NCBI GenBank assembly: GCA_013178125.1
Contig: JABLXJ010000005.1
Location: 1 to 64,000, forward strand
DNA length: 64,000 nt
Direction of reading: 5' to 3'
Source of the DNA: Bacillota bacterium
GTDB taxonomy: Bacteria; Bacillota; SHA-98; Ch115; JABLXJ01
Shown: positions 53,670-62,173 of the stretch, piece by piece
Layout: every line of letters starts with the position of its first letter
Position numbering within the stretch: position 1 is the first letter of the stretch
The notes under the pieces: model-generated
Databases searched by the model: none
Seen by the model: the letters and a program-made list of their open reading frames with translations, nothing else
Told to the model about the DNA's origin: nothing
Program-made: the position numbers and the translations under genes

Positions 53670-55001
53670 TTAGAAGACCATCAGGTACTGATCGATCTCC
53701 CAACTATGGATCTGAGTGCGATATATATCCCATTCGATCTGCTTGGCCTCGATGAAACGCTTGAAGATATGGCTCCCGAGCGCCTCCTGCATCACTTCAT
53801 CGCGCTTGAGCTCCTCCACCGCCTCAGCAAGGCTGCCGGGCAGGCTCTCTATACCGAGCTCAACACGCTCCTCCGGCGTCAACGCGTAGATGTTCTTATT
53901 CACCGGCTCGGGCGGCATTATCTTGTTCTTGATCCCATCAAGGCCCGACTTGAGCATGACAGCCAGCGCCAGATACGGGTTGCATGAAGGATCGGGGTTC
54001 CGGAGCTCTACACGCGTTTGTTTCCCGCGGGCCGCGGGCACCCTCACGAGCGGGCTCCTGTTGCGCTCCGACCAAGCGATATATACCGGCGCCTCGTAGC
54101 CGGGCACAAGCCGCTTATAGGAGTTCACGATTGGATTCGTGATCGCTGTAAAGGCGCGGGCGTGCTTCATCAAGCCGCCGATGTAATAAAGCGCCGTCTC
54201 GCTCAGCTGGTATTTTGCATTGGGGTCGTAGAAGGCGTTCTCCTCGCCCCTGAAGAGGGACTGGTGGGTGTGCATCCCGGACCCATTTATCCCGAAAACG
54301 GGCTTGGGCATAAAGGTAGCATGAAGGCCGTGCTTCAGGGCCACGGTCCGGACCACGAAGCGGAATGTCGCGATATTATCCGCGGTGCTGAGCCCATCCG
54401 CATATCGAAAATCGATCTCATGCTGGGCAGGCGCTACCTCATGGTGGGATGCCTCTATCTCGAAACCCATCTGCTGCAGCGTCAGCACCATATCCTTGCG
54501 GCAATCCTCGCCCATGTCCACCGGCGCCAGATCAAAGTAGCCCGCCTGGTCCCCGGATTCAGTGGTCGGCTTGGAGCCGTTCTTCTTATCAAAAAGGAAG
54601 AACTCCGGCTCCGGGCCGGCCATCATGGTGAACCCCATAGCCCCGGCCTCTTCGAGAACTCTCTTCAGCGCGCCCCTCGGGCACCCATCAAACGGCGTCC
54701 CGTCCGGGTTATAAATATCGCACATAAGGCGGGCTATCGTACCATTCCCAATGCTCCAGGGGAATACCGTAAAGGTCGATGGATCGGGCCGCAGGTACAT
54801 ATCTGATTCCTCTATCCGCACAAAGCCCTCTATTGAGGAGCCATCAAACATGAGCTTGCCATCGAGCGCATCCTCGAGCTGCTCGACGGGGATCGCGACG
54901 TTCTTTATAATCCCCAGAATATCGGTAAACTGCAGGTGAATAAACTTCACGTCCAGCTCTTTAGCCTTCCGCAGTACATCTTCCTTCGTAAGGTTCTCCA
55001 T
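53670..55001 (-). CDS. glnA: Glutamine synthetase type I
   Basis: Glutamine synthetase of 443 residues, the GSI-alpha size typical of Firmicutes. It makes glutamine from glutamate, ammonia and ATP. Signatures are [46 protein letters not shown] (ATP/ammonium site) and [18 protein letters not shown] 55001 with GGGAGAGAGG upstream defines the start; the open frame extends further into glnR. It lies 49 bp after glnR in the same transcript, controlled by GlnR boxes further upstream, and next to the glutamate synthase genes. Confidence 0.97.
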
Positions 55002-55050
55002 GTGCCTCTCTCCCTTTTCTCCAACTCTAACTCTTAATCTAATCCTTAAT

Positions 55051-55443
55051 CTAATCCTTTCGAACCTTATCCAGCGTCCTCTCGAGCTCCGCCCTATCCG
55101 ACACAGGGTAAAGGGACTTAAGCCTTGTGTAAGCCTCGGCACCACCTGGCACTCGCATCCCCGCTCCACGCGTTCTGTCGCGAGCCGCAGCAGCGTCACC
55201 GCCTCTATCGCGCCTCGAGAGTTCCTCTTTGATCTCATTTACCCGCATGCCGCGGTTTATGAAATTCTTGACCAGCTTGAGCCGCTCAACGTCCCTCGCC
55301 GAATACAGGCGCTTGCCCCCAGGCGTTCGCTCGGGGGTTACAAGCCCCATCTTGTCGTAATAGCGAATCTGACGTTCCGTCAAATCTACGAGATCCTTCA
55401 CAACGCCTATTGGATAAACGGGAGTACTCGTCGGCGTGCCCAC
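55051..55443 (-). CDS. glnR: MerR-family nitrogen regulator GlnR
   Basis: Regulator of 130 residues. The MerR winged helix is clear: [53 protein letters not shown] 55443 is chosen because AGAGGAGGTG precedes it by about 7 bases; the longer frame to 55494 lacks support. The C-terminal tail in GlnR normally senses feedback-inhibited glutamine synthetase. Between the two lies a short Arg/Ala/Gly-rich low-complexity stretch ([18 protein letters not shown]). Two perfect TGTNA-N7-TNACA operators flank its promoter, so autoregulation is expected. Confidence 0.9.
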
Positions 55444-55525
55444 CCAGAAACACCTCCTCTCGCGCAGGATTTGCGCAGGATCCACGTTTTGCATGCTTAA
55501 TCCATATTTTGCATGCCTCGCGAAG

Positions 55526-55640: not shown

Positions 55641-56555
55641 CTACTCCCCGAGGCACTCACCGGCCCCATCACCATTATACGAGTCATCCCTGGACCCCGC
55701 GTGGTAAAGCCCAGCAAAAGGCCTCAAAGATTTGGGAGAGAGCTTCAGGAAATTCTCATGCATTATCTCGTCAACATCATAACCAAATAACTCCGCAAAC
55801 TCGCCCACCGCATCCGCTATGAGGCGCATATCATCCTCCGCCGGCTGGGAAATCTTGACCGCGGCCCCCAGCTGGTAAGGGTCCACCCTGCCCCGGATGA
55901 AAATCTCTCCACCGTGCATTCCCGTCCCGATGAAATTCGCCTTGTGATATTCCCCGGGGCCGAGGTTGAGCCCGAGCAGGATCGCCGTGCCCCCAGCCAT
56001 ATACTCGCCAAAAAAGTCATGCGCCGTCCCGCCGACAACGAGAAGCGGTCTCTTCTCGCCACACTCCTTCATGTGAATGGCACTTCTAGAGCCGACATTA
56101 CCTCTGATGAAAATCTTGCCGCCCCTCATAGACATAGCCGCAATATCTCCCGCATTCCCATAGACAACGATCTTCCCGCTATTCATGGTGTTCCCAACGC
56201 CGTCCTGGGCATTCCCGTACACATATATCACTGGCCCGTCCATGAACGCCCCCAGGTCGTTGCCGGGGGTTCCATACAGCATGACCTCGATCTCGCCCCT
56301 GAGGCCGGTCCCGATGTACCTCTGTCCCAGGACGTTCGTGACCGAGATCCTGGATACGCCCCTCCTGGCGGTGAGAGCCCTCAGGGTCCGGTTCAGCTCA
56401 CGGTATGACCTGCCCAGTGCATCAAGGGTAATACACCCCGCTCCTGGCGCCACTCCCGCCACCCCTGGTCTTGCCCCTGGTCCCGGCCCTTCTCCGTCCA
56501 GCATTTCCCTTACCCTTACCTTTAAAGCCTCTAAAACCTCAACTTGAACGCTCAT
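55641..56555 (-). CDS. Glutamate synthase GXGXG-domain subunit (split GltB)
   Basis: Subunit of about 304 residues equivalent to the C-terminal beta-helix (GXGXG) domain of GltB. Repeated structural turns are DGPVIYVYGNAQDGVGNTMN, GKIVVYGNAGDIAAMSMRGG and GKIFIRGNVGSRSAIHMKE. In this split, archaeal-type enzyme it packs against the FMN and glutaminase subunits. The start is directly adjacent to the stop of the FMN subunit gene. The N-terminus has a short GPGPGARPG low-complexity stretch. The last gene of the glt operon, followed by the glnR regulatory region. Confidence 0.9.
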   Translation of the reverse strand: MSVQVEVLEALKVRVREMLDGEGPGPGARPGVAGVAPGAGCITLDALGRSYRELNRTLRALTARRGVSRISVTNVLGQRYIGTGLRGEIEVMLYGTPGNDLGAFMDGPVIYVYGNAQDGVGNTMNSGKIVVYGNAGDIAAMSMRGGKIFIRGNVGSRSAIHMKECGEKRPLLVVGGTAHDFFGEYMAGGTAILLGLNLGPGEYHKANFIGTGMHGGEIFIRGRVDPYQLGAAVKISQPAEDDMRLIADAVGEFAELFGYDVDEIMHENFLKLSPKSLRPFAGLYHAGSRDDSYNGDGAGECLGE

Positions 56556-58055
56556 CTACTGGCCAGCCCCCTTCACACCCAAGACTTCCAGTTCCCATTC
56601 CTGAAGGCCTATGCCTCGCAGGTGCAGCCTGTTCCCCCGCAAACTCTCAATGGAGTTTATCCCCATGCCACCCAGCATCTCCTTTATCTCCAGCGTCCAG
56701 GCGCGCACCAGGTTTACGAGCCGCCGGGTCGCTATATCGGGGTTGAGACGCTTGGCGATGTAAGGGTCCTGGGCTGTAATGCCCCACGCGCACTTGCCTG
56801 TGTTGCACTGCTGGCAGAGCGTGCAACCCATCGCCACCAGCGCGGCGGTCCCGATGTAGACCGCATCTGCGCCGAGGGCTATAGCCTTGATTATATCGGC
56901 GCTATTCCTGAACCCGCCCGCGACAAGGATCGATGCCCTGTTGCGTATCCCCTCCCTGCGCAGCCGCTCGTCAATGGCGGCGAGCGCAAGCTCTGTGGGG
57001 ATTCCAACGTTGTCCCTGATGACCCTGGGCGCGGCCCCGGTGCCGCCCCGGAACCCATCAACCGCTATGATGTCGGCGCCCGCGCGCACCATCCCCGAAG
57101 CGATGGCTGCCGCATTGTGCACCGCCGCTATCTTGACCGAGATGGGCTTCTCATAGTTAGTCGCCTCCTTGAGGGCGTAAATGAGCATCGACAGGTCCTC
57201 AATGGAATAGATATCGTGCTGGGGCGCGGGCGAGAGCGCATCCGTGCCCTCCGGGATCATGCGCGTCGCCGCTACCGCGGCCGTCACCTTCTCGCCAGGG
57301 AGGTGACCGCCTATCCCGGGCTTTGCCCCCTGGCCTATCTTGATCTCCACGATCGCCGCCTGATTCAAGTAATCCGGGTCGACGCCGAACCTCCCCGACG
57401 CGCACTGGACGATGACGTTTCGCCCGAATCTACGAAAATCCATGGGCCACCCGCCCTCGCCCGTATTGCACAGGGTTCCAAGCTCCTGGGCGGCCTGCAT
57501 GAAAGCCAGCTGCGCCTGGTAGCTTATGGCCCCATATGACATGGCACTGAAGATGATAGGCGTCTCTATCATCACCTGGGGGGGCATATCGGTTATGAGC
57601 CGCCCATCCTTGAACACCAGCCCATCAGGCTTGCGCCCGAGGAATGTCCGGAGCTCCATAGGCTCCCTCAGCGGGTCGATCGACGGGTTTGTGACCTGAC
57701 TCGCATTCAGGAGCAGGTGGTCCCAGTATACGCGGTGCGGCTTATCATTCCCCATCCCGGTGATGGTGACGGCTCCGGTCTCGGCCTTTCGCTTGACATC
57801 CAGGAGCATCTCCTCGGACCAATTGGCGTTTGGCCGGAATTCATGGGGGTGCTGGCGTATGACAAGCGCCCCCGTTGGGCAAAGCGTCGCGCACCGCTGG
57901 CACCCTACGCACGCGCTCTCATTTGAGCGAATCTCATCATCCTCGTCGTCATAGGCGTGAACGCCGAAGCTGCACTGGCGGACGCAAACCTTGCACCTGA
58001 TGCACTTATCATCATCTCTATACACCGCGAACTGCGGCAAAAGATAGCTCTTCAT
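56556..58055 (-). CDS. gltB: Glutamate synthase FMN-domain subunit with ferredoxin domain
   Basis: Central subunit of about 499 residues. Two [4Fe-4S] ferredoxin motifs open the protein (C18-C21-C24-C28 and C49-C52-C55-C59). The FMN barrel follows: SAMSYGAISYQAQLAFMQAAQELG, GEGGW, IEIKIGQGAKPGIGGHLPG, AVDGFRGGTGAAPRV and VAGGFRNSADIIKAIALGADAVYIGTAAL. CTLCQQCNTGKCAWG is the 3Fe-4S-type cluster motif of glutamate synthases. It combines ammonia with 2-oxoglutarate using reduced FMN. The archaeal-type fusion of ferredoxin to the FMN domain suggests ferredoxin- or NAD(P)H-fed electron input through the upstream FAD/Fe-S subunit. Confidence 0.94.
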   Translation of the reverse strand: MKSYLLPQFAVYRDDDKCIRCKVCVRQCSFGVHAYDDEDDEIRSNESACVGCQRCATLCPTGALVIRQHPHEFRPNANWSEEMLLDVKRKAETGAVTITGMGNDKPHRVYWDHLLLNASQVTNPSIDPLREPMELRTFLGRKPDGLVFKDGRLITDMPPQVMIETPIIFSAMSYGAISYQAQLAFMQAAQELGTLCNTGEGGWPMDFRRFGRNVIVQCASGRFGVDPDYLNQAAIVEIKIGQGAKPGIGGHLPGEKVTAAVAATRMIPEGTDALSPAPQHDIYSIEDLSMLIYALKEATNYEKPISVKIAAVHNAAAIASGMVRAGADIIAVDGFRGGTGAAPRVIRDNVGIPTELALAAIDERLRREGIRNRASILVAGGFRNSADIIKAIALGADAVYIGTAALVAMGCTLCQQCNTGKCAWGITAQDPYIAKRLNPDIATRRLVNLVRAWTLEIKEMLGGMGINSIESLRGNRLHLRGIGLQEWELEVLGVKGAGQ

Positions 58056-58167: not shown

Positions 58168-59373
58168 TCAGCTTGCGGCGGCCCTCGACTCGGATCCGGT
58201 TATCACCCGTCCACCCAGGCGGCCTATGATCGGCTCGCCGCCCTTCACGGTCCACGTCTCATCGAGCTCCGGGCAGACCACCCGGATGGGCGCCTCCTCG
58301 GATGAGAGGTACAACATGTCATCCTTGATGCCGGCCACCAGTGGGCGGAGCTGTATCCTGTCCCTGAGGCCGATCATTTCGCCCTGACGGGCGATGATTA
58401 TCGTAAATGGCCCGTTCATGAGGAGGGCCGGGTATGTGAGGCGCAGGGCCGTATGAAGCCGCCGCTCGGGCCCGGGCATCCTGTCAATGGCTGTCCATAG
58501 AGGGGGGGCCAGGACCTTTGCCACGATATCCATGGGCAGGCGGTGCCGCCTCGCCAGGAGATCGACGGCGTAGGCGATCACCTCTGTGTCAGTATGCATA
58601 CAGCAGTAATACCCGTGCATCTCGAGAAAGGCCCGATTTGTGCCGTATGACGAGATCTCGCCATTGTGGACCACGCTCCAGTCCAGGAGCGAAAATGGGT
58701 GAGCCCCGCCCCACCAGGCCTGCGTATTTGTGGGGAACCTCCCGTGGGCCGTCCACAAATAGCCGGAATACTCCTCCAGGCAAAAGAAATTCCCTATATC
58801 CTCCGGGTAGCCCACGCCCTTGAAAACCCCCATGTTCTTACCGCTCGAGAAGACGTATGCGTCAGCGATCTGTGTATCGATGGTCATTACCTGCTTTACA
58901 ACGTAATCATCAGCAACATCTTCCTCGATATTCTTGATATCCTTCCTGGCATCTTCCCTGATCATGTCCTTCAGGACATTCTCGGGGACCCTGACGAAGT
59001 ATCTCCAAAGAATAGGCGCAGTCCCTGCAGTATACGCACCTCCTACCCTCGAGCTCGCCGGATCCCTATGCGGCATCTCCTCATCATGAACAAGATCAAA
59101 TGCCGTGCGTATGAAGGCCTCAGTCTGTTCCTTGCCCGCCATGCTCTCATACATGACATGAAGCGCATAGCAATCCTCGTATTCAGGGTAGATGCCGTAT
59201 GCGGCGAAGCCGCCCCCCAGGCCATTGCCGCGGTCGTGCATATTAGCCATGGCAAGTATGACATCCCGGCCCGAGAACTTCCTCCCCCTGGTGCTCATCA
59301 TGCCGAACAAACCACAGTTGGAGATCACCTTGTCGTCGTTGAAAGGATTGGTGATTCTATCAAGCCCTTTCAT
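58168..59373 (-). CDS. Glutamate synthase glutaminase subunit (class II amidotransferase)
   Basis: Class II glutamine amidotransferase of about 401 residues equivalent to the GltB N-terminal domain. The nucleophile is C20 in VISNCGLFGMMS, implying removal of a 19-residue leader, as in other Ntn hydrolases. Further active-site segments are AHGRFPTNTQAWWGGAHPFSLLDWSVVHNGEISSYG. It releases ammonia from glutamine for the FMN subunit. Its start overlaps the upstream FAD gene stop by 4 bp (ATGA). Confidence 0.92.
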   Translation of the reverse strand: MKGLDRITNPFNDDKVISNCGLFGMMSTRGRKFSGRDVILAMANMHDRGNGLGGGFAAYGIYPEYEDCYALHVMYESMAGKEQTEAFIRTAFDLVHDEEMPHRDPASSRVGGAYTAGTAPILWRYFVRVPENVLKDMIREDARKDIKNIEEDVADDYVVKQVMTIDTQIADAYVFSSGKNMGVFKGVGYPEDIGNFFCLEEYSGYLWTAHGRFPTNTQAWWGGAHPFSLLDWSVVHNGEISSYGTNRAFLEMHGYYCCMHTDTEVIAYAVDLLARRHRLPMDIVAKVLAPPLWTAIDRMPGPERRLHTALRLTYPALLMNGPFTIIIARQGEMIGLRDRIQLRPLVAGIKDDMLYLSSEEAPIRVVCPELDETWTVKGGEPIIGRLGGRVITGSESRAAAS

Positions 59374-61784
59374 ACCCGCACCTCGCTTCCGTCACGGCTG
59401 CCAGCTCTCTTCAAGTCCGGGCAGCTCCCATCCCCAGGGTTAGCCTGGAAACTACCATAGCCCCGGCCGTTCTTGCAGCCCTTAACGCTACCCGACGGGG
59501 ACTTCCATAGGGGCTTTCGCAGGAGCTCATCGCGCACCTCCGCCGGTAACGCCATGAGGTTCGCCTCGCTGAAGAGCTCGCCCTTGAATGAAGCTATATT
59601 TATTCCCCGCAGGATGCACTCGACGATGATCCCGGCCCGGTCGATGGCCCGGCCCGCCATGACCAGTCCTATGGGCACGCCGTCCTTCAAAACGATCTTT
59701 TTATAAGACGCTGCTACCACCCTACAAAGCACCCTACGAAGCCCTTCCTTATCTTCCACATCGCCGGCATTTTCCACGTCTCCCATATGATCCCCTTCAG
59801 GTGCCCCGCTCGCCCCGCTGAATTCCTGGAGCACCTCATAGCCTCCCGTCTCGGAGCCGCAGGCTATCCCCCCACCATTCGATGAAGCAGCGCCCGGCTC
59901 CGTGCTCACGCCCGTGCCGGCATTCCAGGTTGCTGGTGCCGGCGATGATGGTGCCGACGACGGTGCCAGCTTTGATGCCGCTGCCGAGGGTGCTACCGCA
60001 GGAGCTATTGCGGATGCCACCGCGGGTGGGTCGAAGATGCCCGCCGAGACGATCGAGAACCCAAAGAAATGGGCCGCATTCATGGCAAACCCCGACATGG
60101 TCACATCCTCGCGCCCGGCCATGTTAAACCCCGCAGTCCGCCCCTGCAAATATGCGTTTGGCCATATGGGGATCGGCCGGCGCCCGCCGAGGAGGAGGTC
60201 GGGGCCCTCGGCCACGTCGCCCGCGGCGAAGATGCCCGGAATGCTGGTCTCCATGCGATGCTCAACAAGTATTCCCTTGTTTACTGCAAGCCCGGCATCC
60301 ACTGCAAGCTCCTTGCGCGGGACCACGCCTGTAGCGATAACAACCAGATCGCATTCGAGCTCGAGCTCATGCCCAGCACCCGTCTGGCCAGCGCCCATCC
60401 GACCGGCACCTGCTCGGCTGGCCTCTACTCGGCTGATGTCTGCCTGGCCGGCTGCCGCCTTCTTGTATGTAATAATTACCGATCCTGCCCTCCGGCCGGA
60501 CCTCTCCCCAAAAGCCTCCTCCGCACCGGTCCCCTCCCGGATTTCCCTGGCGGATGCGCCTTTGATGATCTCAACGCCATGGTCCTTGAAGACGGATTCC
60601 ACCATGGCTGCCCCTGCCGCATCCAGGGCGGGGGCGAGAAGCCTATCCATGAGCTCGACCACGGTTACATGCGCGCCCAGTTTCACGAGGGCTTCCGCAG
60701 CCTGGAGGCCGATCAGCCCTCCGCCGATGACCACGGCCCTGGGTCTGGCAGGACCACCGATTTCAGCCCTTCGAGCCCGAGCTATAGCATCGAACTCCGA
60801 CCTGATCTTTCGCGCGTCCTCGAGGGTGGTGAAGGTGAAGACGTTTTCAAAACCAGCATCAGCCCCGGGCACCGGAGGGATAAATGGTTTGCCTCCCGTG
60901 GCGATCAGCAGTCGGTCATAAGATACCAACCACCCGCTAGTATTTATACTCGACTCAAGGTGGGATCCCGCGCTGGAGCCCCCGGGGTCCTTAACCGGCA
61001 GGACCAGGAGCCTAGATGATTTCGGCTCTATCCTCTCAACACGGCAACCCAGGAACGCATCTACCTTCATCTTCTCGTAGAAGTCCGGCGACCTATAGAG
61101 AATCTCTTCCCCATTGCGCTCCCCTGTAAGACAAAGTGAAATCAACGGCCTCGAATAGGGAGGAGTCGCCTCCTCTGAGAAAACCGCAATGGTCCCCTCC
61201 GAATCCACCTTGCGAATGGCCTCGATGGCGCCTACAGCCGCCACGGAGTTCCCGATTATCGCATATTTGTAGTGGTGACATCTTCCCGGACCCACCTCCC
61301 CGCGCCTGGGCCCGGATAACCTCTCTTCCGGCTCCTTGATAGACGGAGAAGGCTCCTCGGCGACAACCAGGGCCTCGTTCGGGCAGTTCGCAACGCATGC
61401 CGGCATCTCCTCGCCAGGGCACAGGTCGCATTTCAGACTCAAGCCCCGGGCCGCGTCGCGGATGATCGCGCCGTAGGGGCAAGCCAGCACGCAGGTCCAG
61501 CACCCGATGCATTTCCCTTCATCTATCCGGATGGCGCCGTCAGAATCGATATGGGCGGCCCCGGTAACGCACGCATAAACGCATGCTGGCTCCTCGCAGT
61601 GGCGGCACTGGAAGCCAAATGACACGGGTCCGCGTTCCTCGACCTTGACGCGAGCTACAGCCCGGGGTTGCTCCCTCTTAAAGGCCTTGATGATATCCCT
61701 GCTCCTGGAATGCGCAACCACGCAGTAGACCTCACACAACCTGCATCCTATGCAAACCTCTTGCCTTGCAAAGACCTTCTTCAT
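59370..61784 (-). CDS. Fe-S/FAD oxidoreductase, GltD-like electron-input subunit
   Basis: Protein of about 804 residues. Residues 1-145 hold four ferredoxin-type cysteine clusters (CIGCRLCEVYC, CRHCEEPACVYAC, CIGCWTCVLAC and CDLC with CVANC). Residues 170 onward form an NAD(P)H/FAD pyridine-nucleotide-disulfide-type domain: YAIIGNSVAAVGAIEAIRKV, LLIATGGKPFIPPVPGAD, AVVIGGGLIGLQAAEALVKLG, CDLVVIATGVVPRKEL and GIFAAGDVAEGPDLLLGG. It would pass electrons to the glutamate synthase FMN subunit. An Ala/Pro/Ser/Gly-rich insertion of about 90 residues (ASAIAPAVAPSAAASKLAPS onward) lies near residue 600-690, plus a smaller one near 470. First structural gene of the glt operon. Confidence 0.88.
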   Translation of the reverse strand: MKKVFARQEVCIGCRLCEVYCVVAHSRSRDIIKAFKREQPRAVARVKVEERGPVSFGFQCRHCEEPACVYACVTGAAHIDSDGAIRIDEGKCIGCWTCVLACPYGAIIRDAARGLSLKCDLCPGEEMPACVANCPNEALVVAEEPSPSIKEPEERLSGPRRGEVGPGRCHHYKYAIIGNSVAAVGAIEAIRKVDSEGTIAVFSEEATPPYSRPLISLCLTGERNGEEILYRSPDFYEKMKVDAFLGCRVERIEPKSSRLLVLPVKDPGGSSAGSHLESSINTSGWLVSYDRLLIATGGKPFIPPVPGADAGFENVFTFTTLEDARKIRSEFDAIARARRAEIGGPARPRAVVIGGGLIGLQAAEALVKLGAHVTVVELMDRLLAPALDAAGAAMVESVFKDHGVEIIKGASAREIREGTGAEEAFGERSGRRAGSVIITYKKAAAGQADISRVEASRAGAGRMGAGQTGAGHELELECDLVVIATGVVPRKELAVDAGLAVNKGILVEHRMETSIPGIFAAGDVAEGPDLLLGGRRPIPIWPNAYLQGRTAGFNMAGREDVTMSGFAMNAAHFFGFSIVSAGIFDPPAVASAIAPAVAPSAAASKLAPSSAPSSPAPATWNAGTGVSTEPGAASSNGGGIACGSETGGYEVLQEFSGASGAPEGDHMGDVENAGDVEDKEGLRRVLCRVVAASYKKIVLKDGVPIGLVMAGRAIDRAGIIVECILRGINIASFKGELFSEANLMALPAEVRDELLRKPLWKSPSGSVKGCKNGRGYGSFQANPGDGSCPDLKRAGSRDGSEVRV

Positions 61785-62008
61785 CGCGGGTCCTGCCCCC
61801 TAGAGAGTTATATAGTCGATGTAGAGAGTGAAATATGTTTACCAGAGCTATTCATAAATAACCAAGTCCAAAGTTCAATGAATGCGCTGCTTCACCGTTG
61901 CCGGCGCCCCGCATATGTTCTATGCCTGGTTTAGGTCTGAGTTTGGTTGTCTATGTTGTCTATCAAGCAGAGCAAGGGCGAAAGTGAAAGCAAAAGCGAA
62001 AGAGAAAG

Positions 62009-62061
62009 TAAAACAAAAACGCCCACTTCAACGAAGCACCATCGCTCCGGTGAAGTGGACG
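62009..62061 (-). terminator. Leader terminator (putative attenuator) of the glt operon
   Basis: Reading leftward, CGTCCACTTCA (62061-62051) pairs with TGAAGTGGGCG (62030-62020) and is followed by TTTTTGTTTT. It lies about 80 bases after the expected start of a consensus promoter and 225 bases before the first structural gene, so it can control read-through. An alternative pairing, GUGGGC with GUCCAC across its 5' arm, would prevent it. Confidence 0.65.
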
Positions 62062-62115
62062 TCATTGCCCACATTTACCTGCCTGCCTGGCCATTGGCAG
62101 CAGGATCAAACCCAT
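62062..62115 (-). CDS. Putative 17-residue leader peptide of the glt operon
   Basis: ATG 62115 is preceded by AAGAAGG at good spacing and opens MGLILLPMARQAGKCGQ followed by TGA. The stop codon ends one base before the terminator stem. Two of its last seven codons are for glutamine (CAG, CAA). It is the first frame after a consensus promoter. The layout matches ribosome-mediated attenuators, but no such control of glutamate synthase is known to me, so this is a hypothesis. Confidence 0.4.
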   Translation of the reverse strand: MGLILLPMARQAGKCGQ

Positions 62116-62145
62116 TTTACCTTCTTAATCTCTGGTTTATCTCCA

Positions 62146-62173
62146 ATTATAGCACGTAAACCTGACATGTCAA
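62146..62173 (-). promoter_or_regulatory. Consensus sigma-A promoter of the glt operon
   Basis: Reading leftward: TTGACA (62173-62168), 16-bp spacer, TATAAT (62151-62146), both perfect. TGACATGTCA overlaps the -35, a 10-bp palindrome that could be an operator; it is not a full GlnR box. The leader between here and 61785 also contains a Lys/Glu-like purine repeat (GAAAGC, AAAAGC, GAAAGA on the + strand, about 61980-62015). The 250 bases between 62174 and the GH3 gene hold nothing recognisable. Confidence 0.75.

Follow-up and report, generated by a model that had tools for sequence, protein, structure and literature searches.

A putative ANTAR-target antitermination leader ahead of a split glutamate synthase operon in an uncultured Bacillota genome

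Background

How is a glutamate synthase operon regulated when an excellent promoter is followed, before the first gene, by a strong intrinsic terminator? This question is raised by the minus strand of a 64,000-nt stretch of an uncultured Bacillota genome (contig JABLXJ010000005.1, positions 1 to 64,000; hereafter the window). An earlier note on this DNA had proposed a leader-peptide attenuator, in which translation of a 17-codon frame (MGLILLPMARQAGKCGQ) would decide between an antiterminator and the terminator, and stated that its author knew of no described attenuator of this kind for glutamate synthase. Attenuators of another type are on record: ANTAR target RNAs, as published, consist of two hairpins (P1 and P2) with A in the first and G in the fourth loop position (A1 and G4), the 3′ arm of P2 lying in the terminator, and they were reported upstream of glutamate/glutamine synthase genes by Ramesh et al. 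2012 (PMC3369931).

Methods

The leader was compared with those of G001, an uncultured Bacillota MAG of the same genus (contig DUMQ01000154), and of genomes from sister genera. Eight orthologous leaders, taken in four genomes from the gltD and the gltB2 operons, were aligned by hand using the loops as anchors; alignments were N-padded and loop-anchored, as unpadded MAFFT misplaced the P1 3′ arms. A mechanical scan searched 456 kb of related loci for two A1/G4 hairpins with an overlapping terminator. In addition, a covariance model (R1) was built from eight other sites, leaving out the gltD leaders of the window and of G001, and whole-genome model searches were run on 61 genomes.

Results

Architecture of the leader and the operon

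Three elements of the earlier note were recovered, namely the perfect promoter (12/12, with TG before the −10 hexamer), the GUGGGC/GUCCAC antiterminator and, as a prediction from fold and gene content, an attenuator ahead of the glutamate synthase operon (Table 1). On the minus strand, GUGGGC (62072–62067) can pair with GUCCAC (62060–62055) to form P2. The terminator 5′ arm starts from the same GUCCAC, which makes the two folds mutually exclusive. The terminator hairpin is followed by GTTTTTGTTTT. Fold energies are −7.7 kcal/mol for P2 and −30.3 kcal/mol for the terminator, and the leader as a whole folds more stably than its shuffles (z = −4.6). The P1 stem has 9 bp and a bulge, and its loop of 8 nt, AAUGGCCA, starts with AANG and carries A1 and G4. 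This loop also has 8 nt in G001, while the orthologous leaders of G003 and G002 have the hexaloops AAUGGG and AACGGC, respectively. P1 and P2 are joined by a short linker, with 23 nt from loop to loop, a spacing that is 20–27 nt in most scanned sites (extremes 16 and 33). The apical hairpin of the terminator (loop GAUGGU) was considered as an ANTAR hairpin and rejected, as it lacks A1.

Table 1 Features of the leader and of the operon behind it (window positions)
Feature	Position	Strand	Evidence
Sigma-70-type promoter: TTGACA (62173–62168), 16-nt spacer, TATAAT (62151–62146), TG before −10	62146..62173	-	12/12 consensus match; same hexamers in G001
17-codon frame MGLILLPMARQAGKCGQ, probably a chance frame	62062..62115	-	ATG frame; unconserved in G001/G002/G003; chance rate 49%
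P1 stem-loop CCUGCUGCC[AAUGGCCA]GGCAGGCAGG, one bulged base	62078..62104	-	Fold; covariation with orthologous leaders
P2 stem-loop (putative antiterminator) GUGGGC[AAUGAC]GUCCAC, hexaloop A1 + G4	62055..62072	-	Fold; motif scan; covariance model match 62056–62100
Intrinsic terminator hairpin and T tract; 5′ arm starts with the P2 3′ arm	62010..62063	-	Fold
4Fe-4S/pyridine nucleotide-disulphide oxidoreductase (GltD-like), 804 aa, first gene	59370..61784	-	ORF, Pfam
GltB1-like class II glutamine amidotransferase subunit	58168..59373	-	Pfam GATase_2
GltB2-like glutamate synthase FMN domain	56556..58055	-	Pfam Glu_synthase, E 8e-138
GltB3-like GXGXG subunit	55641..56555	-	Pfam GXGXG
MerR-type regulator, just upstream of glnA, same operon	55051–55494	-	Pfam MerR
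Glutamine synthetase, glnA	53670..55238	-	NCBIfam TIGR00653, above cut-off

Downstream of the leader lies a split glutamate synthase (Fe-S/FAD oxidoreductase, GltB1, GltB2 and GltB3), with a MerR-type regulator and glutamine synthetase. The true start of glnA is probably internal to its ORF, and the MerR-type gene possibly adds a second (GlnR-like) layer of control.

A repeat of approximately 110 nt, which the G001 leader lacks, is found between terminator and gltD (61849–61963, minus strand). It is one of two copies in the genome, the other (G000:C7:87910-88021) being 86% identical, and it is possibly a small mobile element.

Recurrence, covariation and co-occurrence

The dual-hairpin scan returned 10 distinct sites against 0 expected in 456 kb (10 against 0.5 in a variant of the scan), and the sites examined are followed by genes for glutamine synthetase or glutamate synthase, by nitR or by carA; the list is a biased gene sample because most loci were fetched for holding such genes. 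R1 gave the leader the top score of the window, 21.3 bits (E 9e-4) against 12.0 for the next match, and placed it among the top three genome-wide, where the E-value is 0.05 for the window site alone. Other matches in the same genome (C1:137826, C6:127903 and C4:115946) were discarded, as the loop motif or a terminator is missing or they do not lie between genes. The stem covariation that the earlier note had suggested looking for in relatives was found: the eight orthologous leaders hold standard pairs in 98.8% of pair cells and changes on both sides in 17 cells, compared with 5.0 in shuffles, a signal that is abolished when the pair partners are slid along the alignment.

Strong sites were detected in 13 of the 61 genomes, and all 13 encode a strong ANTAR domain, against 28 genomes with an ANTAR protein overall (hypergeometric P = 6e-6, relatedness ignored). 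Among the genomes searched, only those with an ANTAR protein carry the motif ahead of nitrogen genes; in f3, a family of the same class, neither strong ANTAR domains nor sites were found. The genome-wide matches that were read also lie ahead of glutamine synthetase genes, asnB and an apparent glutamate dehydrogenase, while a weak match (G023:C1:2795720) looks intragenic.

Individual sites varied in sequence and in gene context. ANTAR-like sites at L148:177-216 (G001:C76) and L051:7005-7041 precede asparagine synthetase-like genes, and a canonical site of 35.7 bits (L141:1168-1209, G003:C14) precedes a glutamate dehydrogenase-like gene, as judged by eye. Some hexaloops of G002 and G003 (L071:4704-4745 and L048:3693-3734) depart from the A1 rule by starting with G (GAUGUG, GAUGAA, GAUGGC).

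ANTAR proteins of the genome

Two proteins with the ANTAR domain (PF03861) are encoded in the window genome. One is a NitR-like regulator, an N-terminal receiver followed by ANTAR, encoded on G000:C21 by the last gene of a second operon, gltB2-glnA-nitR, in which gltB2 specifies a glutamate-synthase-type FMN protein. The leader of this second operon has the canonical motif, GCGAAGGUGC[AAUGGC]GUGCCUUUGC and CGCGGGC[AACGAC]GCCCGCG, with a terminator. The window leader shares with ANTAR targets the A1/G4 hexaloop of P2, the overlap of the P2 3′ arm with the terminator, the short P1-P2 linker and the presence of ANTAR genes in the genome, and departs from the canonical form in P1, with a loop of 8 nt instead of 6. 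Since the genome holds two ANTAR proteins, we infer which of them is cognate to the leader, and NitR is the likely one.

The second ANTAR response regulator (L013:1109-3735, G000:C1) adjoins a GAF/histidine kinase protein fused to an ABC ATPase domain and stands beside sugar-type ABC transporter genes (both by eye).

Alternative explanations

If the hairpins were incidental, the operon could be transcribed from another promoter further downstream, or a plain terminator could be read through constantly. The gap of ~230 nt between terminator and gltD, part of it the 110-nt repeat that G001 does not have, speaks for this reading. P1 and P2 covary, however, the motif recurs ahead of nitrogen genes only together with an ANTAR protein in the genomes searched, and the downstream sequence yielded no further sigma-70-type site, which makes such a constitutive leader very unlikely.

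The leader-peptide mechanism holds that translation of the 17-codon frame senses glutamine, a ribosome at the stop codon covering GUGGGC and thereby favouring the terminator, while stalling at Gln codons would lead to antitermination. The frame is indeed present, it has an SD-like GAAGG, its stop sits within the P2 hairpin loop, and P2 is a genuine antiterminator fold; what failed is its distinctness from chance, as a closed frame of 8–40 codons occurs in 91% of Markov-resampled leaders and one with an SD-like tetramer in 49%. Moreover, it contains only 2 Gln codons in 17, which are not adjacent and form no run for a sensed amino acid. Non-conservation of the frame, which the earlier note itself had named as counting against its proposal, was observed in G001, G002 and G003. 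The same-genus G001 retains promoter, P1, P2 and terminator, with approximately 56 nt inserted between promoter and hairpins, but has lost the ATG together with the frame and its stop. Another frame that ends at the hairpin was found neither in the G001 leader nor in the gltD leader of G003, and no equivalent frame was evident in that of G002, while the hairpins covary. The A1/G4 loops and P1 are also left unexplained by a peptide. On this comparison the frame is probably a chance frame, and ribosome-driven attenuation is extremely improbable.

Least probable of all is a small-molecule or tRNA-sensing leader (a glutamine riboswitch or a T-box), which the position ahead of a glutamate synthase operon would suit, but no Rfam family reached the gathering threshold on the leader and its two small hairpins resemble neither class. 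Elsewhere in the window, the sole Rfam match is a distant glycine riboswitch aptamer (RF00504, 50767–50886, minus strand, 59.9 bits).

Discussion

The leader is very probably an ANTAR-target antitermination element controlling the glutamate synthase operon, and not a ribosome-driven attenuator. As Ramesh et al. 2012 (PMC3369931) described ANTAR sites before glutamate synthase genes, it would be a further case of a known type of switch; ANTAR control of glutamate synthase is already known, and the oddity here is the 8-nt loop of P1.

In the proposed mechanism, the RNA from ~62139 to 62010 (minus strand) would act as the ANTAR target. By default, the nascent chain would form P1 and the strong terminator, and transcription would halt short of the genes for glutamate synthase and glutamine synthetase. 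With the NitR-like response regulator in its active state, presumably in nitrogen limitation, a dimer of its ANTAR domains would bind the loops of P1 and P2 and stabilise P2, holding it against the terminator, whose completion comes later as the chain grows. P2 uses as its 3′ arm the nucleotides from which the terminator 5′ arm starts, so the terminator would then be unable to form, and the operon would be read through. The protein step is modelled on the family, and the identity of the protein, its binding, antitermination and the nitrogen signal at this leader are all presumptive.

What had been taken for a new peptide attenuator thereby becomes one site of a predicted nitrogen regulon. The sites found suggest that, across this group of uncultured Bacillota and related genomes, ANTAR antitermination joins glutamate synthase, glutamine synthetase, nitR, carA and asnB, and glutamate dehydrogenase is probably also a member of the predicted regulon.

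The recurrent pairing of nitR with glnA, together with degenerate receivers, turns the signal of NitR into a testable question. In most loci nitR adjoins glutamine synthetase, and the receivers of glnA-linked NitR proteins (L046-L065, by eye) vary in their acidic-pocket residues, a few of them lacking the phospho-acceptor Asp; the receiver of the window genome has Arg at the conserved Lys position (by eye). AmiC holds AmiR inactive. Since the receivers are atypical and glutamine synthetase is adjacent in most loci, sequestration by a partner is possible in a similar way, and it is conceivable, if rather doubtful, that NitR-type regulators are not classical phosphorylated response regulators and that glutamine synthetase or a glutamine signal keeps NitR inactive. 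If this were true, glutamine synthetase would be the sensor of its own antitermination switch.

Among known systems, the eut operon of Enterococcus faecalis, regulated by EutV (Ramesh et al. 2012, PMC3369931), resembles the window leader in its two stem-loops with A1 and G4, and EutV targets further share the overlap of the P2 3′ arm with the terminator and the nitrogen metabolism genes downstream, while the 8-nt P1 loop sets the window leader apart. Unlike EutV, the likely regulator of the window genome has an atypical receiver, and in the stretch read no histidine kinase gene lies next to its own; the operon concerned is a split (archaeal-type) glutamate synthase with glnA. Similar in gene content are the GS-GOGAT-ANTAR cluster of C. 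thermocellum (Clo1313_2030-2036; PMC4676874) and NitR, which the same paper, citing Fierro-Monti et al. 1992, places with glnA in Clostridium acetobutylicum. These systems have an ANTAR response regulator beside glutamine synthetase and glutamate synthase genes, proposed to be an ammonia-responsive antiterminator. Their gene order differs from that of the window genome, and control in C. acetobutylicum further involves an antisense RNA to glnA. The leaders recognised by NasR (Klebsiella nasF) and AmiR (Pseudomonas amiE) likewise combine a hexaloop hairpin with a terminator in ANTAR-dependent antitermination, but they respond to nitrate and amides, through regulators of other architecture.
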